Positions 32,091 through 49,200 of a DNA stretch of 64,000 nucleotides are shown here, piece by piece. Within the stretch, counting starts at the first letter, position 1. Each line of letters starts with the position of its first letter. The notes beneath the pieces were generated by a model. That model was not told the DNA's origin and searched no databases. It saw only the letters and a program-made list of their open reading frames with translations. A program made the position numbers and the translations under genes. The stretch lies in assembly GCA_024349765.1 (NCBI GenBank), contig AP026074.1:310001-374000 (forward strand), given 5' to 3'. This stretch comes from Streptomyces nigrescens. GTDB lineage: Bacteria; Actinomycetota; Actinomycetes; Streptomycetales; Streptomycetaceae.

Positions 32091-32320
32091 CTCAACCCCC
32101 TTGTTCCCCTTGGCGGACCACCGCCGTCAGGCGCAGATTGCGTCCAGTGGTACCACCTGGGGGCCACCGAGCGTGGCCGGTTTCCGGTCACAGCCCGGAC
32201 CGAGCGACATGGGAAGCGGCTCCTGCCTGTGGATCGCGCCGGCTCAGAGCCCGCTCACGTCACGCGCCGGGCAACGCAACCTTCGCGCGGGGCCATTCGG
32301 ATGACGCTCCTCCGGAGACA

Positions 32321-32390
32321 TTGCCCGACCCGTCACTCCGGTGGGTTACTTGGTGCGTCCAATCCGGTGAGCCGCCCATCTTCTCCGGGG
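32321..32390 (+). promoter_or_regulatory. Shared promoter-leader element, copy A
   Basis: -35 TTGCCC (32321-32326), 18-bp spacer, -10 region GGGTTACT (32343-32350). Ten bases after the ACT comes the conserved step GCGTCC, then CCGGTGAGCCGCCCATC (32364-32380), a hairpin with GGTG/CCCATC-type arms, and then CTCCGGGGGAG (32383-32393), a second small stem. Copies B, C and D have the same order and spacing. It lies 170 bp before the beta-helix protein gene and probably drives the whole IPT-methyltransferase-glycosyltransferase run. The upstream part of this 470-bp gap, 32091-32320, shows nothing else. Confidence 0.65.
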
Positions 32391-32560
32391 GAGCAAGTGA
32401 CGGCGGTCTCCGTTCGCTTGCCGGTTTGGAGCCCCCGCCCCGCACCGGTCCCACGACGGCGATGCCCTACCGGTTCCCTCGGCAGAGGACCTGCCTCGTC
32501 CACCTGCGCTCCTTGTCAGCAGGGTGGGAGCAGCGGCTCGCATGACCGCCTGGGGGCATC

Positions 32561-33244
32561 ATGCCAACTGCCCGTGTTCTTCGGTCGGCACTCGTGGTCT
32601 GTTCTCTGACCGCGGGCCTGATGGCCGTACCGGCCACCGCCCGTGCCCAGATCCCTGTGCTGTGCAGCGAGAGTGCGTTGGTGGCCGCCGTCAACGCGGC
32701 GAACGCGGCAGGCGGAGACACCCTGGCCCTGACTCCGTTCTGCACGTACTCGCTCACCACTGCTCACGGCAGTGCGTCGGACGGGCCGATCGGGCTGCCG
32801 CCCATCACCACCCCGATCACCATGGCGGGGCTGGGCACGGTCATCGCCCGCGACCCGTCAGCGCCGGCCTTCCGGGTGCTCGAAGTCCAGGGTGCCGCGA
32901 ACGTTCCGGGAACCAACGGCCAGCTCACACTGGCCGCGATCACCGTCCGGGGCGGTAACGCGGTCGCTCCCCATCCTGGGGGCGGCATCACCGACCGAGG
33001 CGGTGCGGTGACCCTGGTGTCCAGTTCGGTCACCGGCAACAACGCCGTGGCCGGCGGCGGCATCTACGTCGACAACGGGGTGGTGTCCCTGACGGCCAGC
33101 AGCGTCACCGGAAACTCCGCCACCGCCGCCGGTGGCGGCATCTACCGCAACTCCGGCGTGGTGAGCCTGCTGGTCAGCGACGTCAGCCGGAACACGCCCA
33201 ACAACTGCGCCCCCGCGGGGAGCGTCGCGGGCTGCACGGACTGA
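32561..33244 (+). CDS. Secreted beta-helix-like repeat protein
   Basis: 227 residues. The signal peptide is VLRSALVVCSLTAGLMAV followed by a PATARAQ cleavage site (about residues 5-29). The mature part has parallel beta-helix character, with repeats VTLVSSSVTGNNAVAGGGIY and VVSLTASSVTGNSATAAGGG (about 145-200). Two Cys pairs (CSESAL with FCTYSL, and NNCAPAG with AGCTD) probably form disulfides. Similar repeats occur in polymorphic outer-membrane-like and pectate-lyase-like surface proteins. No catalytic residues are visible. It is the first gene after leader element A and is followed by IPT-repeat genes on the same strand. Confidence 0.82.
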   Translation: MPTARVLRSALVVCSLTAGLMAVPATARAQIPVLCSESALVAAVNAANAAGGDTLALTPFCTYSLTTAHGSASDGPIGLPPITTPITMAGLGTVIARDPSAPAFRVLEVQGAANVPGTNGQLTLAAITVRGGNAVAPHPGGGITDRGGAVTLVSSSVTGNNAVAGGGIYVDNGVVSLTASSVTGNSATAAGGGIYRNSGVVSLLVSDVSRNTPNNCAPAGSVAGCTD

Positions 33245-33386
33245 CGGCACGGCCGGACGACACCGCCGGACAGTCAGACGACTTCACCGGCTCGGCGTGG
33301 CATCGGGCGCGCACCCCGCAGTGCACAGCAGCTCGCCCGGTCCCGCGGGCCATCCACGCGTCCCTCCATGATGAGAAGAGGCAACC

Positions 33387-34130
33387 ATGCCCATCACCCC
33401 CAACCAAGGCTCCACCGGCGGCGGGACAACCGTCACCATCACCGGTACCAACCTCGGCGGCGCCACCGCCGTCCACTTCGGCACGAAGCTGGCCACGATC
33501 ACGGCCAACACCCCCACCTCGGTCACGGTGATCTCCCCCTCCGGGACCGGCACGGTCAACGTCACGGTGACCACTCCCGGCGGCACCAGCAACCCGCTGC
33601 CGTTCTTCTACGTGGGCGCGCCGTTCAAGTCGAGCCTGAGTCCGGTCTCCGGTCCCACCGCGGGCGGCGACACCGTCACCATTCGCGGCAACGGGCTGTC
33701 CACTGCCACCTCCGTCGCCTTCGGCGCGACCTCCGCCACGCCGACCGTGGTCAACGACAGCCAGCTCACCGTCACCGTGCCCGCCGGGGCGGCGGCCGGG
33801 CCGGTCGGCGTCAGCGTGACCACGGCGGGCGGCACCAACAACGGCCTGTCGTACACCTACGTCGACAGTCCCACCGTGACCTCCCTGGCGCCGACGGCCG
33901 GACCGACCTCCGGTGGGACCGGGGTGACCATCACCGGCACCCAGCTGACCACCACGCAGTCGGTCTCGTTCGGGGGGACCCTGGCACCGTTCGACGTCAT
34001 CAATGACACCACCATTTCGGCCGTCACCCCGCCCGGTGCCGCGGGCGCCGTGGACGTGACGGTGGTCACCACAGGCGGATCGGCAACTGCCGCGGGCGCC
34101 TTCACCTACACCGCAGGGCCCGGTATCTGA
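33387..34130 (+). CDS. IPT/TIG-repeat protein (three repeats)
   Basis: 247 residues made only of three IPT/TIG immunoglobulin-like repeats (about 1-80, 81-160 and 161-245). Each starts near ITPNQGSTGGGTTVTITGTN and ends in a TPGGTSN-like turn. There is no signal peptide, anchor or catalytic domain: the first repeat begins at the initiator Met. Export of such a protein would need a non-classical path, or the true start is missed; GAAGAGG precedes the ATG, which supports the start used. Sister genes follow at 34308 and 39107. The role is unknown, perhaps carbohydrate or surface binding. Confidence 0.82.
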   Translation: MPITPNQGSTGGGTTVTITGTNLGGATAVHFGTKLATITANTPTSVTVISPSGTGTVNVTVTTPGGTSNPLPFFYVGAPFKSSLSPVSGPTAGGDTVTIRGNGLSTATSVAFGATSATPTVVNDSQLTVTVPAGAAAGPVGVSVTTAGGTNNGLSYTYVDSPTVTSLAPTAGPTSGGTGVTITGTQLTTTQSVSFGGTLAPFDVINDTTISAVTPPGAAGAVDVTVVTTGGSATAAGAFTYTAGPGI

Positions 34131-34166
34131 CGTACGGGTCGCTGAGCCTGGTCCCCCCGGCCAGGC

Positions 34167-34219
34167 GCGCGGGGGCCCACCCGGAATCCCCCCAACCCTC
34201 ACCGGGCCGGCCCCCGCGC
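34167..34219 (+). terminator. Long inverted repeat between the first two IPT genes
   Basis: GCGCGGGGGCC at 34167-34177 pairs with GGCCCCCGCGC at 34209-34219 across a 31-nt loop. There is no T-tract. It could attenuate transcription between the two IPT genes and so set their ratio. Confidence 0.4.
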
Positions 34220-34307
34220 ATTCCCCCCGCTACAGACACCGGAGCATCCGTCCTCGCGCCGGGCCAGGCACTGGCACCGATCGTCACGTTCTCGAAGGAG
34301 CGGACCC

Positions 34308-35621
34308 TTGAACGCATCCCGCAACCTGTCGAAGGTGTTCTCCGCCCTGGCCGTGCCCCCGCCCTCGGTGCTCTCCGTCTCACCCGGTTCAGGGTCCGTG
34401 GCGGGAGGCACGAGCGTGACGGTGACCGGCGCGAACTTCACCGGAGCCACCAATGTGCGCTTCGGGGCGAACTCGGCGACGTCCTTCACGGTCAACTCCG
34501 ATACCCGGATCACCGCCGTCGCGCCCGCCGGGACCGGAACGGTTCAGGTGACCGTCACCACCCCCGCGGGCATCAGCTCCCAGTTCGTCACGTACGCGTA
34601 CACGCAGGTGACCGGGCCGGTGCTGAGTTCCGTGACCCCGCCCTCCGGTCCGGCCGCGGGCGGGACGACGGTGACGCTGATGGGATCGGGACTGTCCGGT
34701 ACGACGGCAGTGCGGTTCGGTGCGGTGGTTGCGCCCTCGTTCACGGTGGTCTCCGACGCACAGGTCATGGCGGTGGCCCCGGCGGGTTCGGGGACCGTGC
34801 AGATCACGGTGAGCACGCCCGGTGGGACGAGCAACGGGGTGGCGTACACGTATGCGTCGGTGCCCGTCGTGAGCAGTGTGAGCCCGAATCAGGGCCCGGT
34901 CTCCGGTGGGAACACGGTGATCCTGACCGGCGGCAACTTCTCCGGAGCGGCCGCGGTCACCTTCGGCTCCACACCGGCCACGAGTTTCACGGTCGACTCC
35001 CCGACCCGGATCAGCGCCGTCGTTCCCGCCGGAGCGGCCGGTGCGGTCCAGGTCGTCGTCACCGGTCCCGGCGGAACGAGTGCGCCGGGCGCCACGTACT
35101 TCTACCTCGGCGCTCCGGTCCTCAGCAGCCTCACGCCGGCGTCAGGCACGCTGAGCGGCGGCACCAGCGTGACCTTGACGGGCAGTCAGTTCCTCAACGC
35201 GACGGCGGTGAGGTTCGGAGCTGCGGCAGCTTCCTTCATGGTCGTCTCGGACACCCTGATCACCGCGGTCGCACCGCCGGCCTCCGCTGCCGGCTCCGTC
35301 CAGGTGACCGTCACCACGCCCGGCGGGACCAGCGCAGGTGTCAGCTATGAGTACCTCGCGGCGCCCGTACTGACGGCGCTGAGCCCGACAGCCGGGCCCC
35401 TGTCCGGTGGTGACATCGTCACGCTGACCGGCAGTGGCTTCGCCCGGACGACATCGGTGCACTTCGGCACCGGGACCGCCGCGTTCACCGTGGTCTCCGA
35501 CACCGCGCTCACCGCGGTGGCCCCGCCCGGACCACCAGGGCCGGTCGGCGTCACCGTCACCACCCCAGGCGGTACCAGCACCGCCCTGACCTATTCCCGA
35601 GTACCTCCCCCCACCATCTGA
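34308..35621 (+). CDS. IPT/TIG-repeat protein (five repeats)
   Basis: 437 residues: a short N-terminus (MNASRNLSKVFSALAVPPPS) and five IPT/TIG repeats of about 80 residues. Each has the pattern LSVSPGSGSVAGGTSVTVTG, a middle VRFGA, and a TPGGTS turn at the end. There is no signal peptide. The repeats are closely similar in protein and DNA, suggesting recent internal duplication. A GAAGGAG site lies before the TTG/ATG region at 34308. Downstream, 23 bp away, is the methyltransferase gene. The function is unknown; a structural or adhesive surface protein is the simplest guess. Confidence 0.82.
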   Translation: MNASRNLSKVFSALAVPPPSVLSVSPGSGSVAGGTSVTVTGANFTGATNVRFGANSATSFTVNSDTRITAVAPAGTGTVQVTVTTPAGISSQFVTYAYTQVTGPVLSSVTPPSGPAAGGTTVTLMGSGLSGTTAVRFGAVVAPSFTVVSDAQVMAVAPAGSGTVQITVSTPGGTSNGVAYTYASVPVVSSVSPNQGPVSGGNTVILTGGNFSGAAAVTFGSTPATSFTVDSPTRISAVVPAGAAGAVQVVVTGPGGTSAPGATYFYLGAPVLSSLTPASGTLSGGTSVTLTGSQFLNATAVRFGAAAASFMVVSDTLITAVAPPASAAGSVQVTVTTPGGTSAGVSYEYLAAPVLTALSPTAGPLSGGDIVTLTGSGFARTTSVHFGTGTAAFTVVSDTALTAVAPPGPPGPVGVTVTTPGGTSTALTYSRVPPPTI

Positions 35622-35644
35622 GCCCGTCATGCAAGAGGTGACGC

Positions 35645-36712
35645 ATGAGGAAGACGAACGAGCGAAGCGAGAGGGCCGCCGCCCTCAGAGCCGGCTACCG
35701 CAGCGAGCTGGACCAGGGCCTGGAGCGGTTCTTCGAACCCCGCCGAACCGTGTGCCCCTGGTGCACCTCCGACCGCCTGCGCCGGCGCCTGCGCAGCACC
35801 GATCACCTCCAGCAGAAGCCGGGGACCTTCGTACTCGATCAGTGCGGCAACTGCGGGCACGTCTTCCAGAACCCCAGGCTCAGCGCGGAGGGACTGGAGT
35901 TCTACTACCGTGACTGTTACGACGGCCTGGGGCAGGCGACGATGGCGCGACTGGCCTCCTCGCCCCTCGCGAAGATGCTCTACCGGGCCCGTGCCCGCGC
36001 GGTGCTGCCCCATGGTCGCCCGGCACTGTGGCTGGACGTGGGAACCGGCCAAGGCCACTTCTGCGCGACGGCCCGAAGGGTCCATCCGTACACCGAATTC
36101 CATGGGCTCGACCAGGGCGAGGGCGTGCTGAGCGCCGAACGCGAGGGCCGCATCACACGGGCGTACCGAGGCTCCTTCACCGAACTGAGCCACCGCCTCG
36201 CCGGACGGTACGACGCGGTGAGCATGTACCACTACCTCGAACACACTCCGGCGCCGCGCAGCGAACTGGCTGCGGCGCACCGGGCGCTGCGCGCGGGCGG
36301 CCACCTCCTGATCGAGGTCCCCGACCCCCAGTCCCTCTCCGCCCGTCTGCTCGGCCGCTGGTGGGGTCCGTGGCTGCAGCCGCAGCACCTGCATCTCCTT
36401 CCGCTGGCGAACCTCTGCGAGGCGTTGACCGAGCACGGATTCACGGTGGTGGCCGTCGACCGGCGCGAGCCGCACGTACCCACCGACCTCACCTCCGCGG
36501 CGGCCAACCTCCTCAAGTCCGTTCTGCCGGCCGAGGACCTGCCCTGGAGACCCAGGAGACCGGGCCCGCTCAGCCGCTGGTTCCGCAGGGCGGTGCTGCT
36601 GCAGACCGCACCCAATCTGATCGTCCTCTTCGCAGTGGACCTCCTGCTGGCGCCGCTCATCCGCCGCACTCGGCTGTCCAATGCCTACCGGGTGATCGCA
36701 CGCCGTAACTGA
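35645..36712 (+). CDS. Class I SAM-dependent methyltransferase with zinc-ribbon N-terminus
   Basis: 355 residues. A four-Cys zinc knuckle (CPWCTSDRL at about 37-45 and CGNCGHVFQNP at about 67-77) precedes a class I fold. SAM motif I is LDVGTGQGHF (about 129-138), followed by HGLDQGEG and the post-motif block YHYLEHTPAP (about 197-206). This Cys-plus-methyltransf_23 layout is known among sugar C-methyltransferases and cell-surface polysaccharide methyltransferases. The C-terminus has a hydrophobic stretch (LIVLFAVDLLLAPLI) that may touch the membrane. With the next glycosyltransferase it could decorate a glycan or glycolipid. Confidence 0.85.
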   Translation: MRKTNERSERAAALRAGYRSELDQGLERFFEPRRTVCPWCTSDRLRRRLRSTDHLQQKPGTFVLDQCGNCGHVFQNPRLSAEGLEFYYRDCYDGLGQATMARLASSPLAKMLYRARARAVLPHGRPALWLDVGTGQGHFCATARRVHPYTEFHGLDQGEGVLSAEREGRITRAYRGSFTELSHRLAGRYDAVSMYHYLEHTPAPRSELAAAHRALRAGGHLLIEVPDPQSLSARLLGRWWGPWLQPQHLHLLPLANLCEALTEHGFTVVAVDRREPHVPTDLTSAAANLLKSVLPAEDLPWRPRRPGPLSRWFRRAVLLQTAPNLIVLFAVDLLLAPLIRRTRLSNAYRVIARRN

Positions 36713-36749
36713 TCAGGCTCAACACGCTTGCCAATGAAGGGAGTTGGCC

Positions 36750-37973
36750 ATGCGTGTACTCATCGCTTCCGCGGGTTCGCACGGGGACGTGGCCCCGTAC
36801 ACCGGACTGGGAACGCGTCTTACGGCAGCCGGGCACGAGGTGGTGCTGGCGACGCACGAACGCTCCGCCGCCCTGGTCCGCCGCTGTGGACTCGACTTTC
36901 TTCCCTTGCCGCTCGACCAGGGGGCCACAACCGGCACCGGCACGCGGCACTCATCGGCGAAGGCCGGACTCTCCGTGCTCGAACAGGCCCGATTATTAAG
37001 GGAGTTGGGGCCGGTGATGGCTGATGCACTGGCGGATGCCTGCGAGTCCGGTGCGGAGATCCTGCTGTTCTCCAGTGGTCTGGCCCCCTTGGCGCTGGTG
37101 GCAGCGGCAGGAGTGGGGCTGCCCAGTATGGGAGTCTTCCTGCAGCCGCTGGCCCCCACCCGGGAGTTCCCCCCGGTCGTTTCGGGACTCGCGTCGTTGG
37201 GACCGCTGGGCAACCGGGTCGCGGGCCACTGCGCCCAGTCATTGCTGGTCCGCCTCTACGCACGGGGGGCGCGCCATCTGCGGCGGAGGCTGCACGTGAC
37301 GGCGCACGCCGTCGAGCGGAGGCGGGCGGCATCGCCCATATACCACGGCTTCAGTCCCCGGGTCGTACCGCGGCCTTGCGACTGGCGGCCGGGCATGGAC
37401 GTGGTGGGGTACTGGTGGCCGGCCGAGGACCCTGACTGGACGCCGGATCCCGGACTGTCCGAGTTCCTGCGGTCCGGCCCGCCGCCGGTCTACGTGGGCT
37501 TCGGCAGCATGGAGCTCGGAGACTCCGAGGACCTCGGGCGCCTGGTGGCACGTGCCTTGCGGCTCGCCGGAGTGCGCGGTGTGGTGCAGACCGGCCGGGC
37601 CGGCCTGTCCCTCAACGGGGACGATGTGCTGACGATCGGTGCCGTTCCGCACGCACGGCTGTTTCCGCAGGTGTCCGCGGTGATACACCACGCCGGAGCA
37701 GGTACCACGGCGGCGGGCCTGCGGGCAGGAGTGCCGGCGGTTCCGGTGCCCGTGATGCTGGACCAGCCGTTCTGGGCGTCCCGCCTGAGGGCCCTCGGTG
37801 TGAGTCCCGGTGTGCTGCCGGTGCGTCGACTCTCCGCGGAGAGGCTGGCGGAGGCCGTGCGGCACGCCGTGCGCGATCCGTGGTACCGCGACCGCGCGCA
37901 GCGCCTCTCCGCGCTGATCGCGGCGGAGGACGGCGCCGGCCAGGTCCTGGCAGCCGTCGAGCGCAACTACTGA
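36750..37973 (+). CDS. Macrolide-type glycosyltransferase (GT1, MGT family)
   Basis: 407 residues from ATG 36750 (GAAGGGAG upstream). The GT-B fold starts RVLIASAGSHGDVAPYTGLG, the typical glycine-rich acceptor side. The donor side has PVYVGFGSMELGD (about 250-262), then SAVIHHAGAGTTAAGLRAGV (about 312-331) and DQPFWASRL, which are the nucleotide-sugar-binding motifs of family 1 enzymes that glycosylate polyketides and lipids. It should transfer a sugar from a UDP- or dTDP-sugar to a small or lipid acceptor. The acceptor could be the product of the PKS encoded further on, which is inference. Confidence 0.87.
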   Translation: MRVLIASAGSHGDVAPYTGLGTRLTAAGHEVVLATHERSAALVRRCGLDFLPLPLDQGATTGTGTRHSSAKAGLSVLEQARLLRELGPVMADALADACESGAEILLFSSGLAPLALVAAAGVGLPSMGVFLQPLAPTREFPPVVSGLASLGPLGNRVAGHCAQSLLVRLYARGARHLRRRLHVTAHAVERRRAASPIYHGFSPRVVPRPCDWRPGMDVVGYWWPAEDPDWTPDPGLSEFLRSGPPPVYVGFGSMELGDSEDLGRLVARALRLAGVRGVVQTGRAGLSLNGDDVLTIGAVPHARLFPQVSAVIHHAGAGTTAAGLRAGVPAVPVPVMLDQPFWASRLRALGVSPGVLPVRRLSAERLAEAVRHAVRDPWYRDRAQRLSALIAAEDGAGQVLAAVERNY

Positions 37974-38000
37974 ACACGCGTCGAGCGCAACTACTGAACA
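37955..38000 (+). repeat. Tandem 22-bp repeat at the end of the glycosyltransferase gene
   Basis: The sequence from 37955 to 37976, including the stop codon, is repeated without change at 37979-38000, a 24-bp period. The second copy lies outside the gene. It is a recent tandem duplication. Confidence 0.8.
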
Positions 38001-38082
38001 GGCTTCCTTCTCGCCGGCGTTGAGGCTTAGGCCAAACGGGTGCCTTGAGGTCGGTTCCGTTACCTGGGCCGGTCCACGTTGG

Positions 38083-38129
38083 TTTACTGGCTTCATCCGA
38101 ACCGGTGGGTCGCCCATCCCTTCCCCGGG
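38083..38129 (+). promoter_or_regulatory. Shared promoter-leader element, copy B
   Basis: -10 region TTTACT (38083-38088), then, exactly 10 nt after the ACT, CATCC followed by CCGGTGGGTCGCCCATCC (38102-38119) and a second small stem TTCCCCGGGAA. The -35 is weak (GTTACC, 38059-38064, 18-bp spacer). The gene for a small secreted protein starts 157 bp further on. Confidence 0.6.
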
Positions 38130-38286
38130 AAAGTCGGCGTTCGACACCTGCCCGCTCGCGCTCCCAACAGGCAAGCCCTTGGCGGCCGTTGCCTGCTTTC
38201 CCGCAGTCCCTTGGAAGGGACCCGGTGCTCCTCCGGAACCAACCTCCTCGCCACTCGGCGAGGACGTCATCTGTAGGGAGTTTCCC

Positions 38287-38694
38287 ATGAACCGTGTCCG
38301 TATCGCTGCCGTCACCGGCACGTCCGCCGTCGCGATAGCTCTCGCCCTGGGCGTCGCCCCCATCGCCTCGGCCGCGCCCGCCAAGGCCGCTGTCTCGGCC
38401 TGCGTGACCGACCTCCAGGCCGCCCAGAACTCCAACAACGCGGCCATCGCGGCGGACCAGGCCAACAACACCAACGCTGCCCGCACCCAGAACCTGGCCA
38501 CCACCACCTCGCTGCTCTCGGCAGCGGTCGACTGCCTCGGGCAGCCTTCGACGGTGACGGCCAACGTCCTCACCGCCACGACCAGTAACCTCTCCGCGAC
38601 GGTGTTCAACGTGCTGGGGGCCTCGGCCGCCGCCCTGAACGCGGAGCAGTCGACAGCCGCGGCTCTCACCGCCGCTCTGGCCAACGCGAGCTGA
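38287..38694 (+). CDS. Small secreted Ala/Asn-rich protein
   Basis: 135 residues from ATG 38287 (GTAGGGAG upstream). The signal peptide is clear: basic N-terminus, hydrophobic AVAIALALGVAPIASAA and a SAAPAKA-type cleavage site at about residue 30. The mature part has two Cys (VSACVTD and VDCLGQ), probably one disulfide, and Ala/Thr/Asn-rich helices with the stretch NNTNAARTQNLATTTSLLSA. It has no homology I recognise. It has its own leader element (B) and a strong terminator, so it is a separate transcription unit, probably abundant. Confidence 0.8.
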   Translation: MNRVRIAAVTGTSAVAIALALGVAPIASAAPAKAAVSACVTDLQAAQNSNNAAIAADQANNTNAARTQNLATTTSLLSAAVDCLGQPSTVTANVLTATTSNLSATVFNVLGASAAALNAEQSTAAALTAALANAS

Positions 38695-38708
38695 TCGTTC
38701 CGCACACA

Positions 38709-38743
38709 GGTGGGGGCCCGGGCCGCATGCCCGGGCCCCCACC
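38709..38743 (+). terminator. Perfect 15-bp hairpin after the small secreted protein gene
   Basis: Arms 38709-38723 and 38729-38743 (starting GGTGGGGGCCC) are fully complementary with a 5-nt loop, 14 bp after the stop codon. It ends in GCGTTTC, a weak T-run. Confidence 0.85.
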
Positions 38744-38814
38744 GCGTTTCCCGTCGCGTTGTCATTCCGCGGGAATGCGCGCTGCGCTGAACGAGTGGGT
38801 CGATGTCAAGGACA

Positions 38815-38882
38815 TTGCCCGCTGAAAACCCTTCTGGGTTACTGGGGGATGCCTGGTCGGTGGGCCGTCCATCCCCCTCGGG
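38815..38882 (+). promoter_or_regulatory. Shared promoter-leader element, copy C
   Basis: -35 TTGCCC (38815-38820, within GACATTGCCCG as in copy A), 17-bp spacer, -10 region GGGTTACT (38836-38843). Ten bases after the ACT lies ATGCC, then CGGTGGGCCGTCCATCC (38858-38874) and CCCTCGGG. The start codon of the Q/L-repeat IPT gene is 225 bp further on, giving a long leader. Confidence 0.65.
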
Positions 38883-39106
38883 CTTCAGTGGTCGGCCCAC
38901 CCGCCAGCCCTCTGCACGCAGGGCTGTGAAGGAAGCCCGGCAGCGTGACGGCCCTCGCACCTCGTGAGCGTGAACAGGCCCTCTGCGCGCCGCCGGTGTC
39001 CTCCTCCGGTACGGCCGGCTGCTGCCAGTGCCCGGACTCCGGGCTCGTGCACCGCACCGTCGCGAGCCGAGCCGGGCGACACCCCGCAGACAGCAGGAGG
39101 ACTTCC

Positions 39107-39739
39107 ATGTGCACATGCTCGAACCAACCGAACCCGCAGGCGGCCCAGGCGCAGCTCCAGGCTCTCCAGCTCCCGCAGCTCCCGCAGCTCCAGCTTCCCC
39201 AGCTCCCGCAGCTCGGCCCGGCGCTGATCGCCCTGCTGCCCAACTCGGGGCCCGTCGACGGCGGTAACACCGTGACGCTGTTCGGACTGGGGCTGGCCGG
39301 TACCACCGACGTGCAGTTCGGGGAAGAGTCGGCGACCATCACCGGGCAGGACCCCTTCGGGCTGACCGTCACGGTGCAGGCCCCGCCGCAGGACCCAGGT
39401 GCCGTGCAGGTCACCGCCACGAACGCCGTGGGCACCACCAACCCGGTGACCTACGTCTACGTGGAACCGACCGATCCGCCCGCCCCGGTGGCGGCCGCGA
39501 TCATCCCCAACGCCGGTCCGGCCGGCGGCGGCATCCCGTTCGCCATCGTCGGCTCCGGTCTGCAGAACGCGGACGTGACGTTCGGGGACACTCCCGCGAT
39601 CGTCCTGGGCACCGACCCCGGCGGCTCGTTCCTGTTCGGGCTCGTTCCGGCCGGACCCGCCGGCGGCGGGAACGTTCCGGTCGTGGTGACCACCCCGGGC
39701 GGCAGCGCCACTGTCCCCGGCGGGTTCACCTACCTGTGA
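39107..39739 (+). CDS. IPT/TIG protein with Cys-rich start and Leu-Pro-Gln repeats
   Basis: 210 residues from ATG 39107, which has a perfect AGGAGG six bases upstream; an earlier frame extension exists but lacks this signal. Residues 1-10 are MCTCSNQPNP; residues about 11-40 are a repeat tract of LPQ and LQ units (LPQLPQLQLPQLPQL); residues about 40-210 are two IPT/TIG repeats (NSGPVDGGNTVTLFGLG and NAGPAGGGIPFAIVG). There is no signal peptide. The Cys pair near the N-terminus could bind metal or become modified. Related to the IPT genes at 33387 and 34308, but separately transcribed from leader element C. Confidence 0.82.
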   Translation: MCTCSNQPNPQAAQAQLQALQLPQLPQLQLPQLPQLGPALIALLPNSGPVDGGNTVTLFGLGLAGTTDVQFGEESATITGQDPFGLTVTVQAPPQDPGAVQVTATNAVGTTNPVTYVYVEPTDPPAPVAAAIIPNAGPAGGGIPFAIVGSGLQNADVTFGDTPAIVLGTDPGGSFLFGLVPAGPAGGGNVPVVVTTPGGSATVPGGFTYL

Positions 39740-39762
39740 GGTAGGGGATTTGTGAACCCGTA

Positions 39763-39798
39763 GTCCGGCCCCCGTTCCTTGAGGGACGGGGGCCGGAC
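39763..39798. terminator. Perfect 13-bp bidirectional terminator hairpin
   Basis: GTCCGGCCCCCGT (39763-39775) pairs with ACGGGGGCCGGAC (39786-39798) with a 10-nt loop. It lies between the IPT gene and the convergent recombinase gene. Confidence 0.85.
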
Positions 39799-39823
39799 CT
39801 TCGTCGGTTACCGCGCGGTCGTC

Positions 39824-40786
39824 CTAGCGCACGGGGTCGGCGCTCGGCGGGAGGTAGCGCCGGACCTCGTCCGACGAAGGGCGCCCGGCGACGTCGTACA
39901 GCTCGGACATCGTCATCCCGGCATCCGCCATCCACGTCAGCCCGGTGGGGCGCAGGTCGTTGCGCAGCAGGAACTCGTGCCCCAGTTCCACCACGACATC
40001 GTCCCAATTCGTCGCCTCCCTCAGCAGCGGGGTGGAGAAACGGCCACCGGACGGTTCGGTGAACAGCCGGGTTTTCGGTGCCTCGCGTGCCGCCTGCAAC
40101 CGCCGGGCCAGCAGCATCCGTGCCGCGGGCCGCAGTGGCACCGCTCGCCGGCTCCGGTTGGGGCAGGCGGAATCGGTCAGGCCGTCCGGCACGAAGACGG
40201 TGTACCGGCACACGTTCCAGGTCCAGGTCACCGGGTCGATGTCCTCGGCGCGCAGGGCGGACACCTCACTGAACCGGGTGCCCGTCCATGCCGTGAAGCG
40301 GACGATGTCGCCCCAGCCCTGGTAGCCGTCCGAGGACTGCTGGACGAGCCTGGCCGCCAGGAGGTCGAGCGCAGCCGGGTCCGGAAGCGCCAGCGACCGC
40401 GGCGTGGTGCGTTCCCGCTGGGCACACTGGTATTCCCGCTGCCAGCCGGCGATGCGTGCGGGATTGGCGTCGAGGACCCCGTCGTGCACGGCCTGTTCGA
40501 GGACCCGCACCAGCACCGCCAGGCTGTTCTTCACCGTCGACAGCCCGTACTCGTCCGCGATCCAGCAGTGCAGCGCCCGGTTGACGTCCCGTCGGGTCAT
40601 CTTCCTTACGGGGACGTGCCCGAGGCTCGGGAGGACACGCAGCCGCCATCCGGCCTCGTACGGACACATGGTGAGGGGCTCCAGCCCGTGCATCGCGGCC
40701 GCCCACCGATATCCCCCGTACTCGGCGAGTGACATGGTGCGGCCGTCGACCGCGCGGGAAGACCGCGGCGGGAAAACAATCGTCAT
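39824..40786 (-). CDS. Tyrosine recombinase-like protein with altered catalytic residues
   Basis: 320 residues. An N-terminal SAM-like core-binding domain (about 45-120) precedes a catalytic domain. The first Arg is in TGTRFSEVSALRAEDID (about 172-188). The HxxR box reads LLRNDLRPTGLTWMADAG, so the Arg is kept but the His positions are not. The usual GH before the Tyr reads GRPSSDEVRRYL, with the His again missing and the nucleophile Tyr (VRRYL) present. Two of the usual active-site His residues are therefore lost. It may be inactive as a recombinase, or a regulatory relative. It splits the IPT region from the PKS genes. No att repeats were found. Confidence 0.78.
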   Translation of the reverse strand: MTIVFPPRSSRAVDGRTMSLAEYGGYRWAAAMHGLEPLTMCPYEAGWRLRVLPSLGHVPVRKMTRRDVNRALHCWIADEYGLSTVKNSLAVLVRVLEQAVHDGVLDANPARIAGWQREYQCAQRERTTPRSLALPDPAALDLLAARLVQQSSDGYQGWGDIVRFTAWTGTRFSEVSALRAEDIDPVTWTWNVCRYTVFVPDGLTDSACPNRSRRAVPLRPAARMLLARRLQAAREAPKTRLFTEPSGGRFSTPLLREATNWDDVVVELGHEFLLRNDLRPTGLTWMADAGMTMSELYDVAGRPSSDEVRRYLPPSADPVR

Positions 40787-41653
40787 TCTCCAATTACCCT
40801 TGTCTGATGGGGTGTTGGCGGGCCCGTGCTGGGATGGCGGAAATTATTCGTACGTGGTGAAGGTGACGCCCGGCCGTGGGTACTTCAGAAAGATGTGCTA
40901 TGCCGCGTCACAGGTCGGCGGGCGTACCCACCACCTGGTTAACGTCCTGAGGCAACCGACTTCGTAGTGCCCGGGCTCCCTGAGTACGAATCTGCCGCGG
41001 CGAGTTGGTGGTGGCGCACGTCATCTTTTCGCCGCAGCGCTGGAGGAGGCATGGCGGCGCTACATCGGTCATGAGTGAATTAAAAGCACCCATCAATGCC
41101 GGTGCGCAAGTTGGTCGGTGCGAGTTCGCAGTTTTACGCGCTGCTCCGAATGGGTGGCCTTATCGGTTGGCTATTGTAGCCCGCCCTGAGCGCATGGATA
41201 ACTATTCGCATCCAACCGGTGGGCCGCCCACCCTCTCCGGGGAGCGGCATCCGGCCTACTCGTTGGCCCGGCCCAGTGCCTGGTTACGGGTCAGACCGGC
41301 GCCGTATGGGCGTCCCCGGCGGAGGGTCTTGGATCCGTCAGCCGGCGTCGGATTTTCCGGCGCCGGCTGATCGGCCCCCCACCGCCGAGCGAGGGACACC
41401 ACGCGATCGACTTCCGCATGGTGACCGTCCCCGAGACCCCCACGAGCGCAGCGGCCACCGCTCTCGCCGCTGTCGACCGTCCACTCACCGGCGCAGCCCC
41501 GCCGGTACGACAGGCACGGCCTTCGTCGCCCCTCCGGCAGCTGCCGCCCACGCGGTGACCTCCGCGCAGGTTCCCCCACCGCATCTCTGCATCGCCATCG
41601 GCCGGAATCCGGCTGCGAACCAGAAAACCTGCGAAAGAACCCCGGAGTGGACC
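40787..41653 (+). other. Gene-free stretch before the PKS operon
   Basis: 867 bp without a convincing gene. It holds the leftward promoter region of the recombinase gene (about 40790-40900), leader element D (41174-41244) and about 400 bp of leader before DUF5988. A + strand frame at 41005-41370 crosses element D and does not look like protein. Local GC between 40830 and 41210 is lower than in the flanking genes (for example ATGAGTGAATTAAAAG near 41070), which suggests a regulatory or acquired region. Confidence 0.4.
41174..41244 (+). promoter_or_regulatory. Shared promoter-leader element, copy D
   Basis: -35 TTGTAG (41174-41179), 18-bp spacer, -10 ATAACT (41198-41203). Ten bases after the ACT lies GCATCC, then CCGGTGGGCCGCCCACC (41216-41232), a perfect hairpin GGTGGG-CCG-CCCACC, and CTCCGGGGAG (41235-41244), a second stem. 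It is upstream of DUF5988, the ketosynthase and the PKS. Confidence 0.65.
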
Positions 41654-41860
41654 ATGCCACGGAAAAGCATCGTGATTCTCGTCGACGAGGCCGGGGGAAC
41701 GGCCCTTCCCCAGAACTCTCGTGAAGAAGCCCGGGATCCGGTACGGCTCGTACGCGGCAGCGGCTACGAGCGTTTCGAATTCTACGGTGAATACGCGGAG
41801 TTGGACGGCGAGCAAGTGCCCGTGTACCGCTGGCATTACCGCACGTCCATTGCCGAGTAG
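41654..41860 (+). CDS. DUF5988 family small protein
   Basis: 68 residues. The block PVRLVRGSGYERFEFYGEY and the end YRWHYRTSIAE match the small DUF5988 proteins that sit in actinomycete polyketide and non-ribosomal peptide clusters, usually without known function. Upstream is a CGGAGTGG ribosome site. The gene is 77 bp before the ketosynthase gene on the same strand and is probably its operon partner. A regulatory or assembly role is possible but unproven. Confidence 0.75.
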   Translation: MPRKSIVILVDEAGGTALPQNSREEARDPVRLVRGSGYERFEFYGEYAELDGEQVPVYRWHYRTSIAE

Positions 41861-41937
41861 GCATCGCGCGCCCCGACGAAGAAACCAAGTCACAGAGGAC
41901 GGCACATGACGATCCTCGTGAGGGACGGAGTCCTGCC

Positions 41938-43269
41938 ATGAAACAAGCCGTGTACCCCGAAGACCACGACACCGGCCGCCGGGCCGTGGTGACCGGGGTC
42001 GGGTTCTGTCTGCCCGGCCCGACGAAACCGGTCTTCACGGCCGAAGAGGCATGGGACGTGGCCGCAAACGGCCGGTCGTGCCTTCAGTACGACGAGGTCT
42101 ACTACGGCGCCGTCGGCCTGACCCAGGAAATGTTTGACGAACACTTCCCGGACCTTCCGCCGTTCTTCTCCCGCCACTACACCTCGGCACACCAATACGG
42201 CCTGCTCTCGCTGGCGCACGCCTGCGAGGACGCCGGACTGAATTTCCGGGACGGAGAACTCAGCGATGCCGCGATTCTGGTCGGGCGCGGGGGAGTGGAC
42301 GCCAACATCGACAGTTATCTGTCGGTGCTCCGCGCCGATCCCGCGACCACCAGCGCACCGGAAGCCATGGAGCTGTTCGTCGCGGCCCAACAGGCGGTGA
42401 CCCCCTCGGACGTGGCCCTGGTCCAGTCCGCGCTCGTCCGCTCCAACGGCCCCACCTACACCGTCTCGTGCGGTTGCGCCTCGTCCGCCGTGCAGATCGG
42501 CAACGCCCGGCAGATGATCACCCGGGGTGAGGCAGACATCGCCGTCGTCACCGGCGTCGACGTCTTCAACATGCACCTCATCCAGAACATCCAGCGACTG
42601 CTGCACGGCGCCCAGCAGACCTACGAGTCCGTGCGGACCCCCGGGATGCCGGAGATGGTGCCGTCCTTCCTCTCCCTCATGCGCCCCTACGACCGCCGGG
42701 CGAGCTGCATCAACCACGGCGAGGGCTCGGCCACCGTGATCATCGAGAGCTGGGACCACGCGGTCCGGCGCGGTGCGCACATCTACGGCCAGGTGCTCTC
42801 CACCGCCATGGCCCGCGACGGCCTGGCCAACCCCCTCGCCTGCGACGAGACCGGCGGCGAACTGGTCGCCGCCGTCCACCGCTGCCTCGGCGACCGCTGG
42901 GACCTGGGCAACGTGCCGTACGTCCACGGCGGCAGCGACGGCAACATCGTCGTCACCGCCTTCGAGGCCGCCGCCATCAAGGAGCTGTACGGGACCGACA
43001 ACGCCCCCCTCATGACGTCGCAGGAGGGCTGCTTCGGCCACAACGGAGCCCCGGCGGGCTGCACGGGGGTCGCCCTGACGCTGATGATGTTGGAGCGAGG
43101 GCAGGTCTGCCCCACCGCCAACTGCGAGGAACCCGCCGACGGGCTGACCTTCGACCCGGTCCCCGGCACCCGGCCCCGCCCGCTCGACTTCGACTACGCG
43201 CTGACCTTCAACTACCAGGTCGGCGGGGTCAAGAACGCCATCCTCCTCGGCAGCACCCAGGTCGTGTGA
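41938..43269 (+). CDS. Stand-alone beta-ketoacyl synthase
   Basis: 443 residues, a single thiolase-fold ketosynthase. The active-site Cys is in SCGCASSA (C180), the first His in YVHGGSDGN (H330) and the second in GCFGHNGAPAG (H368). The Lys that normally stands five residues before this His (KSxxGH) is replaced by Glu (SQEGCFGH), and the first His motif is HGGSDGN where HGTGT is usual, so this is a divergent KS. It has no AT or ACP of its own and probably works with the PKS encoded 30 bp downstream, perhaps for starter formation, chain transfer or release. Confidence 0.87.
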   Translation: MKQAVYPEDHDTGRRAVVTGVGFCLPGPTKPVFTAEEAWDVAANGRSCLQYDEVYYGAVGLTQEMFDEHFPDLPPFFSRHYTSAHQYGLLSLAHACEDAGLNFRDGELSDAAILVGRGGVDANIDSYLSVLRADPATTSAPEAMELFVAAQQAVTPSDVALVQSALVRSNGPTYTVSCGCASSAVQIGNARQMITRGEADIAVVTGVDVFNMHLIQNIQRLLHGAQQTYESVRTPGMPEMVPSFLSLMRPYDRRASCINHGEGSATVIIESWDHAVRRGAHIYGQVLSTAMARDGLANPLACDETGGELVAAVHRCLGDRWDLGNVPYVHGGSDGNIVVTAFEAAAIKELYGTDNAPLMTSQEGCFGHNGAPAGCTGVALTLMMLERGQVCPTANCEEPADGLTFDPVPGTRPRPLDFDYALTFNYQVGGVKNAILLGSTQVV

Positions 43270-43299
43270 CCGCGGACCACGCCTACGTACGGAGACCCG

Positions 43300-46200
43300 A
43301 TGAGCAACCACACGCTTCCTCCGGCCGCCGCGCCGCAGACCCCGACCGACACCGAGCGCATCGCCGTGATCGGCATGGGATGCCGGCTCCCCGGCGACAC
43401 CCCCTCGCCCGCAGCCCTGTGGCGGCTGCTGTCCGAGGGCCGGGACGCGGTCGGCGAGCTTCCCCCCGAACGCCGGCGCCTCGTCCAGGGGGACTCGCTC
43501 GGCCGCGGAGATCCCGGAACACCGGCCTTCCAGCCGGGCGGCTACCTGCGCGAGGTGGCGGGCTTCGACGCCGCCTTCTTCGGCGTCGCGGGCGGGGAGG
43601 CCGATGTCCTGGACCCCCAGCACCGCCTGCTGCTGGAAGTCACCTGGGAGGCGCTGGAACACGCCGGCCTCCCGCCGGAACGGGTGCACGGCACCCCGAC
43701 CGCCGTCTTCACCGGCATCAGCTACGGCGACTACATGGACCACCTGACCGGGACGCCCCGGGAACTCGAAGGATCGATCCTCACCAACGGCCACTGCGTG
43801 GCGGCAGGCCGGGTCTCGTACCTCCTGGGAGTGCACGGATCGAGCGTGGCCCTGGACACCGCCTGCTCCTCCTCGCTGGTGGCCGTGCACATGGCGCGCC
43901 AGGCCCTGTGCGCCGGCGAGTGTGACCTGGCGCTGGCCGGCGGCGTCACCCTGACCTTCCAGCCGCGCATCACCCGCTCCTTCGCCAGGATGGGCATGCT
44001 CTCCGCCAGTGGGCGCTGCCGTACCTTCGACGCCGGAGCCGACGGATTCGTCCGCGGCGAAGGCTGTGGCGTGGTCGTGCTCAAACGCCTCGACGACGCC
44101 GTTCGGGACGGTGACCGCGTACTGGCCGTAATCCGCGGGTCCGCGACGAACCAGGACGGTTCGTCCGACGGACTGGCCGCACCGTCGGCCGCCGCCCAGC
44201 GGGCCCTCTACCGGGAAGCCCTCGCGCGCTCCGGGATCGACCCCCAGGACGTGGGGATGGTCGAGACCCACGGCACGGGCACCCCGGTGGGTGACCCCAT
44301 CGAGTTCGCCGGGCTGGCGGACGTCTACGGGGACGGCCCGGGCCGCTGCGCCCTGACCTCGGTGAAGACCAACGTCGGGCATCTGGAGCCGGCCGCCGGC
44401 GTCACCGGGCTGATCAAGGCCGTGCTGTGCCTGCAGCGCGGCGCCATCCCCGCGAACCTGCACTTCCGGCAGTGGAACCCGGCCATCTCGGCGGCCGACA
44501 CCCGCTTCTTCGTGCCGACCGAGCTGACCGCCTGGCCCCTGCCGACACCGACCCGGCTGGCGGCGGTGTCCTCCTTCGGCTTCTCGGGCACCAACGCCCA
44601 CGTACTGTTGGAGCAGGCCCCGCACACTTCGGCGCCCCGCCGTCACGAAGAGCCGGCCCCCTCCGCACCCGATGTCTTCCTCGTCCCGGCCGGCTCCCCG
44701 GACGTACTGCCCGCCGCGGCCGGAAGACTCGCGGAGTGGGTGTCCGGTGAGGGCGCGAACGTACCGCTGCGGGACCTCGCGCACACCCTCGCCCTGCGGC
44801 GCTGCGCCGGCCGCGGCCGGCTGGGCGTCGTGGCCTCGGGGCGCCGCGAACTCCTCGGCGCCCTCCGCGCGTTCGCCGACGGCCAGCGCCACCCCGCGGT
44901 GGTGACCGGGGCGGCGGTGGGCGCGGCGGTGGCGCGGCAACCGGTCTGGGTGTTCTCCGGCCACGGATCCCAGTGGCCCGGAATGGGACGCGGCCTGCTG
45001 AAGACCGAACCGGCCTTCCGGGAGGCGTTGAGCGAGGTCGGCGAACTCATCCGGGCACAGAGCAAGGTCTCCGTGGTCGACGTCATCCGGAAGGGCAAGC
45101 CCGTCAAGGGCTGTGGCGAGGTGCAGCCGGTGCTGTTCGCGCTGCAGATCGCGCTCGCCGCGACCTGGCGCTCGTACGGCGTCGAACCCGCCGCGGTCAT
45201 CGGCCACTCCATGGGCGAGGTCGCGGCGGCGGTGGTGGCCGGTGCCCTGACGCTCGCCGACGGGGTCCGGGTGATCTGCCGCCGCTCCGGCCTGCTCAGT
45301 GACATCGCGGGCACCGGCGGCATGGTGAGCGTGGGACTGAGCGCCGATGCGGTCCGCGAGGAACTCGCGGACGGCGCGGCCGAGACCGTGTCGGTCGCCG
45401 TGCTGTCCGCGCCGGACACGACCGTGGTGGCCGGACGCACCGCGGAGGTGAGCCGGCTGGCCGCCGCCTGGGAGGCCCGGGGGGTCCCGGTCTTCCCGAT
45501 CGCCGTGGACGTCGCCTCCCACTGCCCGCTGGTAGACCCGGTCCTCCCCGCACTGCGCTCGGCGCTGGCCGGGCTGACGCCGCGGCCGCCCACGGTGCGG
45601 TTCTACTCGACCGTGGTGGAGGCAGGCGCCACCCCGTCCTTCGACGCCGACTACTGGTGCGACAACCTGCGCCGCCCCGTGCGGTTCGCCGAGGCGGTGG
45701 CCGCCGCGGCGGCCGACCGGCACCAGGTCTACGTCGAGCTCTCACCCCATCCCGTCGTCACCCACTCCGTCGAGCGGAGCCTGTCCGGGCTGGTCACCTC
45801 CCCGGCCGTGCTGCCCACGCTCCGCCGCGAGGAGGACGAACCGACCACGCTGCGGACCCAGCTCGCCGCACTGCACTGCGCCGGAGTCCCGGTGAACTGG
45901 CGGCGCCTGTACGACGGTGGAGCCCTCGTCGACGCTCCCACCCTCACCTTCGACCGGCGCCACCACTGGGCCGAGGCCGCACACCGCTCCGCACCGGCCG
46001 GCCCGGTCGACTCCCCCCTGCCCGGCCGGCACTCCGAAGTGCCGGGCGAACCCGTGCGGCACTGCTGGCGCGCCGACACCGGCACCGACGCACTGCCCTG
46101 GCTCGCCGATCACCAAGTCCACGGCTCCCCGGTCATGCCCGGCGCGGCCCACTGCAGCATCGCGCTCGCGGCGGCCGCCGAGGCCTTCGGGACCGCGCCG

Positions 46201-49200
46201 CACCAAGTCGACATCACCGACGTCCACTTCGAGCAACTGCTGCGACTGGACCGGCAGACCGACCTCAGCACCGTCGTGACGATGGCCGCGCCCGACCGGG
46301 CGCACTGCGAGATCCTCGCGCGCGGCGAGGACGGCGACTGGGAGCGGCAGGCCGACGCGGTGCTGCACCGGCTGACCGTACGACCGGACACCCGGCCGCG
46401 GCCCATCGAGGCCCTCACGGTGCGCCATCCGGTCCGGTTGGACCCGGGCGACCTGTACCGCAATCTGCGCCGGCGCGGCCTGGAACACGGTCCGGCCTTC
46501 ACCGGCATCACCGAACTGCGCACCGAACGCCATCACGGCAGCTATCTCGCCAAGGTCACCCTCCCAGCCCGGGCGAAGGACCCCGCACCCGGTCTCGCGG
46601 TCCATCCCGTCCTGCTCGACGTATGCGCCCAGCTCGCGGTGGCACCGCTGATGCACGAGGACGACAGCGCACCGGTGCTGCCCGTGGCCGTGCAGGCGGT
46701 GCGCGTCCTGGGCGATGCCGCGCAGGCCGAGTACTGCCACGCGCACATCAGCGAGAACGCGCCGGACAGCGTGGTCGCCGACGTCCGGCTCCTGGACGGC
46801 AACGGTGCGGTCGTGCTCGCCGTCAACGGCCTGCGCTTCACACGGCGGGCCGCACACAGCGCGCCGGCGGCCGACGACTGGCTGCTGGAAATCGGCTGGC
46901 ACTCCGCGCCCCGGACCACGACCGATGCCGGCCAGGCGCCGGGAAGCTGGTTCCTCGTGGGGGAGGCGGACGGCTCGGCCCGCGTCCTGGCCGCCGCACT
47001 GCGTACCCGCTGCGCCCGTACCAGCGTCTGGGACCGTCCGCTGGACGACACGCCCCTCGACACCCTCCGCAACTCCCTCAGCGAACGCCTGGCCGCCGGA
47101 CTCCAACCGCCGCGCGGCGTGGTGCTGGTGTGCGGCCGGCAGAGCGGTGCCGAGCCGACCGAGGATTCGTTGCGGCGCACCCGCAGACTGCTCGCCGTCC
47201 TGCAGGCCGTCGCCGCGAGCGCGTCGTCTCCGCGGCTGTACGTCCTCACCCAGGGGGCCCGGGACGTACTGCCGGACGACACCGTCGACGTCGGGCAGAG
47301 CAGCCTCCGGGGACTGGTGCGGGTCGGTGCCCTGGAGCACCCGGAACTGCGCCCGACCCTGGTGGACGCCGACTCCCGGAACGCCGACCCCGCGGACGTG
47401 GCGGAGGAGTTGCTGGCCGACGCCGGCGACGACGAGGTCGCGCTGCGCGCCGGCGACCGGTGGGTGGCCCGGCTGCGGCGCGCCCCGGCCGAGCAGGAAC
47501 GTCCGCTGACCCCGTGCGCCGTGCAGTACGGCGTCGACGGGTTCCGGCTGCGCGCGGCCCGGCTGGGCGATCTGTCGAGCCTGGAGTACGCCGTGATCCG
47601 GCGGCGCCCGCCGCAGCGCGGTGAGGTCGAGGTGCGGGTCACCGCGGCCGGCCTGAATTTCCGGGACGTGCTGACCGCGTTGGGTCTGCTCCCCGGCGAC
47701 GAGGACGTCCGCTACCGCATCGGGTTCGAATGCTCCGGTGTCGTCAGCGCGGTGGGCGCCGGGGTGGACCATGTGCAGGTCGGGGACGAGGTGGTCGCCA
47801 TCGACCTGCGGGGCGGGGCGTTCGGCTCGTTCCTGACCGTCCCGGCCGAGGGGGTGGCGCCGATCCCCGCCGGCCTCGGGCCGGTCACCGCGGCGGGTCT
47901 GCCGGTCGCCTTCGTGACGGCCTGGTACGCCCTGCGGCATGTCGCCCGCCTCGCGGCCGGGGAGCGGGTGCTGATCCACTCGGCCACCGGCGGGACCGGG
48001 CTGGCGGCGATCGCGGTGGCCCGGGCACTGGGGGCCGACGTACTGGCCACGGCCGGCAGCACGGACAAACGCCGCTACCTCCGCGGCATGGGCATCCGGC
48101 ACGTCATGGACTCCCGCTCCCTGGAGTTCGGGGAGCGCGTCCGTGAGGCGACCGGCGACGGCGTCGACGTCGTGCTCAACTCGCTCTCCGGCGCGGCGAT
48201 CCGCACCGGACTGGAGACGCTCCGTCCGTTCGGCCGGTTCGTGGAGCTCGGGGTGCGCGACATCCTCTCCGACGCACCGCTGGGGATGCTGCCCCTGCGC
48301 CACAACGTCACCCTGCGCACCGTGGACCTGATCGAGCTGTGCCGTCACCGTCCCAACGCGTTCGCCCGGGTGTGGCAGGAGGTCCTCGACGAGTTCACGG
48401 CCGGCCGGCTCACACCACTGCACTGCACCGAATACCCGCTGTCCGAAGCCACGACGGCCTTCCGCACGATGGCCGCCGCCGACCACATCGGCAAGATCGT
48501 GCTGGCCGTGCCGCACGCCGGCCAGGCCCGCGCCGCGCTGCCCGAGATGGGGCTGCCGGTCCGGAAGGGCAGCGCCTACATCGTCACCGGCGGACTGCGC
48601 GGTCTGGGACTGGCCACCGCACGCTGGCTCGCCGCGAACGGGGCCGGTCACCTCGTCCTCAACGGGCGTTCCGCCCCCTCCCCGGACGCCGCACGGCAGA
48701 TCGCCGACCTGGGCAAGGACACCACCAAGGTGTCGGTGGTACTCGGCGACATCGCCGAACCGGGCACCGCCGAGCGGCTGGTGACGACCGCGGCGACCGG
48801 GGGCTTCCCCCTGCACGGGGTGGTGCATTGCGCCATGGTCCTGGACGACGCGGCCCTCACCAACGTCACCGACGAACAGTTGGAACGGATCTGGCTGCCG
48901 AAGGCCGCCGGTGCCTGGCGGCTGCACCACGCCACGGAAGGGTGCCCGCTGGACTGGTTCGCGGCGTTCTCCTCGATGGCCTCCCTGCTCGGCAACGCCG
49001 GCCAGGGTGCCTACGCCGCGGCGAACTCCTGGCTCGACGGCTTCGCGGCCTGGCGCTCCGCCCGCGGCCTGCCCACCCTGGCGGTGAACTGGGGCCCGTG
49101 GGGCCAGACCGGTGTCGCCACCGACTTCGGCCGGCGCGGCTACCACACCATCCCCACCGATCAGGGCATGGCCGCACTGCAGGCCCTGCTGTCCCGGCGG

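Follow-up and report, generated by a model that had tools for sequence, protein, structure and literature searches.

A repeated promoter-leader element of Streptomyces with a BldM-WhiI-like box and a structured RNA

A stretch of Streptomyces nigrescens DNA (GCA_024349765.1, contig AP026074.1, forward-strand positions 310,001-374,000; hereafter the window, 64,000 nucleotides (nt) in its entirety, in which positions are counted) carries four copies, A to D, of an element that stands ahead of genes for repeat-rich proteins and for a polyketide synthase (PKS). The element is probably a cassette that joins a late-sporulation promoter to a new leader RNA acting in cis. Upstream, a box of the BldM-WhiI type (Group II, late sporulation) would activate a promoter with sigma70 spacing, and the transcript would fold, from a few nucleotides after its start, into a structured leader some 165-190 nt long. 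In the complete form, represented by copy D, the 5' end AUCCAA is predicted to pair with UUGGAU and to close a junction holding a local hairpin and a long arm, followed by a strong hairpin, P4; in an alternative helix, P1, the conserved left arm AACCGGYGGGCNGCC would pair with a segment about 35-55 nt downstream, which would exclude the local hairpin and form a pseudoknot with the long arm. At the spore stage the cassette would drive the adjoining PKS unit and proteins that are rich in repeats and probably lie at the surface, with the RNA most likely acting in cis after initiation, either by protecting the 5' end from decay or by a switching of folds that gates the mRNA. The promoter half of this reading is firmer than the half that concerns RNA function.

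A sequence-only reading of this DNA had described a four-copy element, and all four copies are present on the + strand, with a conserved palindrome starting at 32366 (A), 38104 (B), 38859 (C) and 41218 (D). The motif TWACT-N8-CC occurs at four places in the window, which are copies A-D, and a longer pattern allowing three mismatches found A, B, C and one unrelated 3-mismatch site in the 9.3-Mb genome, copy D being missed because it is one base shorter. The -35 block attributed to A and C is common to both (GACATTGCCCG), and the genes follow the copies in the order proposed: beta-helix-like protein, small Ala-rich protein, Q/L-repeat IPT protein and the DUF5988-ketosynthase-PKS unit. Other details needed adjustment. 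The exact 10-nt step from TTACT to YCC applies to A-D but varies in the wider family alignment, and the GGTGGG/CCCACC stem is perfect in D only, since A has an A-C mismatch and B and C have G-U pairs. The conserved unit is longer than described, by about 30-55 nt on its upstream side and, in D, by about 140 nt on its downstream side. Leaders had been put at about 155-400 nt; counted from the putative transcription start up to the first codon, they are about 205 (A), 190 (B) and 255 nt (C) long, but about 445 nt in D, above that range. By the covariance model and folds described below, copy D is predicted to be a complete leader RNA, and A-C to keep its 5' part only, their 3' halves having diverged.

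The wider family was collected in two rounds. A sequence-only model, R1, was built from A-D, which it matches by construction (E 6.5e-13 to 9.5e-12, the top of its own-genome list); its next matches in this genome, at C2:820522 (E 6.5e-8) and C2:833996 (E 8.8e-4), are weaker, the best of them by about 7000 times in E-value. Over 392 genomes of the genus, R1 gave strong clustered matches in a few dozen, and its tally at E<=1 is mostly chance. Eighty regions were fetched and 141 R1 hits from 91 sources collected, of which 82 were left after removal of the weakest 13, of N-flanked hits and of hits above 80% identity. From these 82 non-redundant hits a longer family model, R2, was built, and its 258 aligned hits (150/153 + 108) were reduced to 148 elements by removing truncated sequences and those above 75% identity; 147, 146 or 144 of the 148 have enough flank, depending on the test.

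Alignment of the family shows three blocks that the sequence-only reading had missed or seen in part: a box CCATTCGGGTGA, then TTG(C/T)C, then TGGRTTACT/GGGTCACT/GGATAACT. The box resembles the published Group II site of the BldM-WhiI heterodimer, TGnnCCGnnCGGGTGA, whose targets are late genes dependent on bldM, whiI and whiG (PMC4125116). A 16-bp box with at most 2 of 12 mismatches to TGnnCCGnnCGGGTGA is found in 87 of 147 elements, whereas windows at -230..-186, taken as a control, have one in 5 of 147 cases and the opposite strand in 2 of 147; the box lies about 76 nt before the palindrome (in the window copies always 76-77 nt). The palindrome of the BldM Group I homodimer, TCACcCgnncGgGTGA (left half TCACCC), is matched with at most two mismatches in only 12/147 elements (control 1/147). 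An operator for one regulator had been suggested from the constant spacing; a regulator site is indeed indicated, but it is the upstream box and not the palindrome. By likeness of motif, BldM-WhiI would bind this box and the promoter would be timed to the spore stage. The main sigma70-type promoter of S. avermitilis has a -10 TANNNT and a -35 BTGACN (PMC8780764); the TTG of the element and its spacer of 17-18 nt, judged by eye in the alignment, fit sigma70, and the -10 TGGRTTACT has no TA at its start.

The predicted start of the transcript is a structured RNA of about 165-190 nt. Among the 4227 models of Rfam 15, two matched window positions 30000-45000 at E<=5, neither on an element, and one matched eight element loci at E<=1, again not on an element. 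Complete leaders, called class I, were selected by pattern from the 144 elements long enough (42, less the misaligned L231, giving 41), and share the architecture AUCCAA-CCGGYGGGCNGCCCAUCC...CCGGGGGA...GCCGC-GAUGGGC-CCCC...-UUGGAUCC, followed by a hairpin CAGCCGGUGCCG...CGGCACCGGCUG. The leader is structured, with compensatory base changes in conserved helices. In structure A (helices P0, L2-R2, P3 and P4), 20 of 38 pairs are doubly changed (12.3 in shuffled alignments), and 87 cells are changed on both sides compared with 32.8, a value that 0 of 500 shuffles reach. P4 is 98.5% paired, with compensatory double changes in 11 of its 13 pairs; P3 taken alone is equalled by 1 to 5 of 500 shuffles on four of five measures, its covariation score being reached by 1/500. 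A covariance model built from class I, R3, had copy D outside its training set and close relatives from the same gene context inside it; copy D is the best of its three hits in the own genome (E 1.8e-18), and A-C reach 15-17 bits. Left to fold freely, copy D is predicted to form a three-way junction in which P0 joins 41210-41217 with 41325-41334, the local hairpin occupies 41218-41232, the long arm joins 41233-41248 with 41301-41324, and P4 follows at 41337-41371.

Two long-range helices were detected by an alignment-free permutation test, in which the pairing of an element's own arms is compared with pairing to segments of other elements. For P1 (left arm with +24..+72), z is 9.2 over 146 elements, 6.5 at 96 clusters and 3.2 for 49 elements from named genomes with near-duplicates removed; an earlier run on 82 elements gave 6.1 at 61 clusters and 2.4 at 26. 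With the register chosen without the tested base, Watson-Crick pairing at positions +6, +7 and -4 exceeded all 2000 shuffles, and position -3 reached p 0.001. A 69-nt stretch holding the 5' part only folds into P1. The second helix, L2-R2 (+9..+30 with +80..+128), emerged from what had been intended as a control pairing, with z 9.5, 7.6 and 2.1 at 146, 96 and 13; four other control pairings stayed below 1.5 at 96 clusters, and +9..+30 with +32..+80 gave -3.1. Both helices hold separately within class I and class II (L2-R2 z 6.0 and 6.6). Covariation across genomes is found in P1, L2-R2, structure A and P4, and the proposed RNA structure at the 5' end exists, but its covariation lies in long-range helices and the 3' hairpin and not in the local stem first described.

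That local stem, GGTGGG/CCCAYC, gave no sign of covariation: 94.5% of cells are paired compared with 94.6% in shuffled sequences (82 sequences), z is 0.5 by permutation, and minimum-energy folding of 82 short segments yields the stem in 9, even though the full free fold of copy D contains it. It was rejected as the covarying structure, as was a simple local P2 stem, CATCC/GGGGGA (z -0.8). The palindrome GRYGGGCNGCCCRYC (about +8..+22) might instead be a DNA operator for a repressor or a second activator, RNA folding being secondary. Its core is nearly invariant and palindromic, the absence of covariation in the local stem is what a protein site would give, and changes in the half-sites are independent, the third pair being C-A in 16 of 82 sequences; such an operator is nonetheless unlikely, as it leaves the covariation of P1, P3 and P4 and the conserved 3' half unexplained.

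The fold with P1 and the junction fold are mutually exclusive unless pseudoknotted, and this points to, but does not prove, a switch between folds during transcription. Two incompatible folds that both covary would also be expected of an intrinsic-terminator attenuator read by a protein or a ligand, and a GCCGGTT right arm is present in 20 elements, 13 of which have at least 4 T after GCCGG. U-runs are nevertheless confined to a minority of elements and no ligand-related theme was seen among the genes, which makes an attenuator quite unlikely.

The genes that follow the element were compared across the family. A simple codon-based caller assigned a first gene to 115 of 148 elements, and after removal of 5 duplicates 110 products were scanned. 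A TIG domain is present in 67 of them; the others include matches to beta-propeller models (about 10), Big_3_5 (5), ketosynthase (3) and HATPase (3), and the beta-helix-like and small Ala-rich proteins form further families near elements. TIG genes (E<=1e-8) are found in 51 of the 56 genomes with the element, compared with 61 of the 336 without it. The recurrence of the same kinds of gene in the same orientation (TIG in 67/110) bears on a further explanation, in which the element would encode a small RNA ending at P4 and the neighbouring gene would be transcribed from its own promoter. The compactness of the RNA, the strong hairpin at its 3' end (40 of 41 class I copies), a U-run at +45..80 in 18/146 elements (3/146 controls) and the long distance to the start codon (median 299 nt) would suit such a gene, but a run of four T within 14 nt after P4 occurs in only 2 of 41 class I leaders and the early U-run is absent from most elements; with the shared downstream genes also against it, this is the least probable of the explanations considered.

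Several observations weigh against the reading as a late-sporulation promoter with a structured leader. At the promoter, the window boxes are weaker than those of the family, with 3 (A), 3 (B), 3 (C) and 2 (D) mismatches; the + strand of the 64 kb has 67 further sites with 3 mismatches and 9 with 2, and the published CCG is often CCA in the family alignment. Because the window boxes are weak and so many other 3-mismatch sites exist, the case for a BldM-WhiI box is made at the level of the family. For the RNA, the complete class I form accounts for only 41 of 144 leaders, and a 9-bp hairpin at +100..190 is found in 22 of the 103 others, near the control value of 21/143. A competing structure B (GCCCAU/AUGGGC) scores well too, although the pairs behind that score hardly vary; in 35 of 41 leaders B is the more stable of the two, and the mean energies of A and B are -79 and -92 kcal/mol compared with -100 for the free fold, with averaged pair probabilities low for every helix except P4. 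The signal of P1 drops to z 2.6 at 13 clusters and is not significant at 2 (z 0.8 at 5 clusters in the earlier run on 82 elements), its position +2 reaches p 0.055, and -1 and -2 give no signal. L2-R2 is weak in a fixed alignment (12/500 for cells paired, 312/500 for pair types, a slide of +1 being almost equal), and z-scores of short-window folding are modest. In addition, the 61 genomes noted above have TIG genes and no element.

Strongly structured mRNA 5' ends are familiar from E. coli ompA, which carries a 5'-terminal stabilising stem-loop; the present leader differs in that sequence conservation exceeds pairing and two folds compete. With the BldM-WhiI Group II promoters (PMC4125116) the element shares the box TGnnCCGnnCGGGTGA in one orientation, with the half-site CGGGTGA nearest the promoter; the part of that paper drawn on here describes no conserved structured leader, and the targets of the element are accessory repeat proteins and a PKS. 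The Streptomyces dauA, livJ, pntA and asfR motifs, which are riboswitch candidates or structured leaders (PMC11109978), are likewise structured RNAs upstream of a gene and are found mainly or only in Streptomyces, but they precede other genes, and the RNA described here goes with a promoter of developmental type; the main text of that paper contains none of the words IPT, TIG and Kitasatospora. No description of this leader was found in the open-access literature, subscription papers and supplements aside. What stands out is that an activator site of the sporulation type is joined to a structured RNA without a match among the Rfam 15 families. The element gives a testable regulon for the large, little-studied IPT/TIG, beta-propeller and beta-helix-like proteins and PKS of Streptomyces, and a naturally repeated cassette, with up to 10 matches in one genome (R2, sample of the order), suits the study of mRNA leaders in spore formation.

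Further copies were found in other streptomycete genomes. At E<=1e-4, R2 matches 56 of the 392 genomes of the genus, a count that includes the own genome and many from which training sequences came. Of 147 genomes sampled from the order, 19 matched at E<=1e-3, four of them from another family, and among 396 genomes of the phylum 14 matched at E<=0.01, namely the own genome, one weak match within the genus and 12 elsewhere. Occurrence outside the order is unproven: the 12 matches from other genera are weak, the best having E 2.9e-5, and several are partial. When named genomes were scanned with an exact pattern, 71 stretches fitted it. Of these, 69 belong to Streptomyces (S. lydicus and S. murinus among the carriers), Kitasatospora, Wenjunlia and Streptantibioticus and were confirmed by R2; the other two, from metagenome-assembled genomes (L244, L261), were not. 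Pattern and models derive from Streptomyces copies, so the distribution describes close relatives of these copies.

In the own genome R2 gives seven matches at E<1e-5, in the order A, C2:820521, B, D, C, C2:833946 and C1:5065016. Those besides A-D lie at C2:820521-820626 (-), at C2:833946-834051 (+), ahead of a gene for a propeller-like repeat protein, and at C1:5065016-5065114 (+; weaker, E 5.2e-6).

It is conceivable, if rather doubtful, that the element is a mobile developmental module, in which a BldM-WhiI promoter and a two-state leader RNA (P1 versus junction and P4) would time the translation or decay of stored mRNAs for repeat proteins of the spore surface and for a dedicated polyketide; it would then be a developmental RNA switch that moves, within the Streptomycetaceae, between the chromosome and linear plasmids. 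Partial matches to the copy D region (14-67%) occur in ten Streptomyces plasmid records, and in the four plasmids viewed (L286-L289) IPT/TIG genes lie near an element in all four, an ATP-binding protein in two and DUF5988 in one. A phage origin was rejected: ten viral contigs fit a short pattern and none contained the element, and the copy D region has no phage record match.

Table 1. Features of copies A-D and of the genes that follow them in the window
Feature	Position	Strand	Remarks
BldM-WhiI-like box, copy A	32289..32304	+	GGGGCCATTCGGATGA, 3/12 mismatches
Promoter, copy A	32321..32350	+	TTGCCC, then GTTACT with TGG ahead; putative start ~32357
Palindrome, copy A	32366..32380	+	5' part of predicted leader RNA, 3' part diverged; weak R3 match, 16.0 bits
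Beta-helix-like protein, first gene after A	32561..33244	+	family 2: 21 genes in 15 genomes of fetched loci
Two IPT/TIG repeat genes after A	33387-34130, 34308-35621	+	PF01833, E 1.7e-44 and 4.8e-68
BldM-WhiI-like box, copy B	38028..38043	+	TAGGCCAAACGGGTGC, 3 mismatches
Promoter, copy B	38060..38088	+	TTACCT, then TTTACT
Palindrome, copy B	38104..38118	+	weak R3 match, 17.3 bits
Small Ala-rich protein after B	38287..38694	+	family 8: 7 genes in 7 genomes; no Pfam match above cut-off
BldM-WhiI-like box, copy C	38783..38798	+	TGCGCTGAACGAGTGG, 3 mismatches
Promoter, copy C	38815..38843	+	TTGCCC, then GTTACT
Leader 5' part, copy C	38853..38907	+	palindrome 38859-38873; weak R3 match, 15.4 bits
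Predicted helix P1, copy C	within 38853..38907	+	left arm CTGG..GGTGGGCCG with CGGCCCACC..CCAG; minimum free energy (MFE) folds
Q/L-repeat IPT/TIG protein after C	39107..39739	+	PF01833, E 2.3e-11, scanned as 38945-39736
BldM-WhiI-like box, copy D	41142..41157	+	TGCTCCGAATGGGTGG, 2 mismatches
Promoter, copy D	41174..41203	+	TTGTAG, then ATAACT with TGG ahead; putative start ~41210
Complete class I leader RNA (predicted), copy D	41207..41382	+	R3, 110.4 bits, E 2.9e-21 in 15 kb
Three-way junction (predicted), copy D	41210..41334	+	MFE fold
3' hairpin P4, copy D	41337..41371	+	covariation, R3 match, MFE fold
DUF5988, ketosynthase, type I PKS (KS-AT-DH-ER-KR-ACP) after D	41654..49629	+
HATPase gene	49953..50480	+	relatives elsewhere have their own element copy

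The product of the first gene after copy A (Table 1) has no Pfam match above the cut-off, and may be a beta-helix protein, a label that comes from reading its sequence, in the earlier reading and here, and from no database hit. The downstream repeat proteins are probably surface proteins, would be expected on the spore surface, and in several cases have no obvious signal peptide. Many IPT/TIG first products start directly with MPISPNQGSTGGG, without an obvious signal peptide, which makes their route to the surface puzzling. A conserved neighbouring regulator was considered and rejected, the widest of the 30 most shared families shown being IPT/TIG, PKS and beta-helix-like; in the same set each HATPase family is confined to 4 genomes, and the sole regulator-like family seen to 3. 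At L053, L054 and L058, a HATPase gene related to that of the window has its own element copy, divergent from another copy.

The window belongs to a contig of 1.07 Mb that is separate from one of 8.25 Mb. An integrase-like gene lies between C and D at 39824-40693 (-), with a Phage_integrase score of 24.0 bits, below the cut-off of 27.1, and its relatives occur at 8 loci of 8 genomes, the window included. On three of the four linear Streptomyces plasmids viewed, phage/plasmid primase genes adjoin the neighbourhood of IPT/TIG gene and element. Tandem elements about 280-440 nt apart stand ahead of a single IPT gene at L088, L102, L108, L109, L110, L113 and L116, and the downstream element of such a pair has no upstream box, since R2 matches it only from model position 17 or later.

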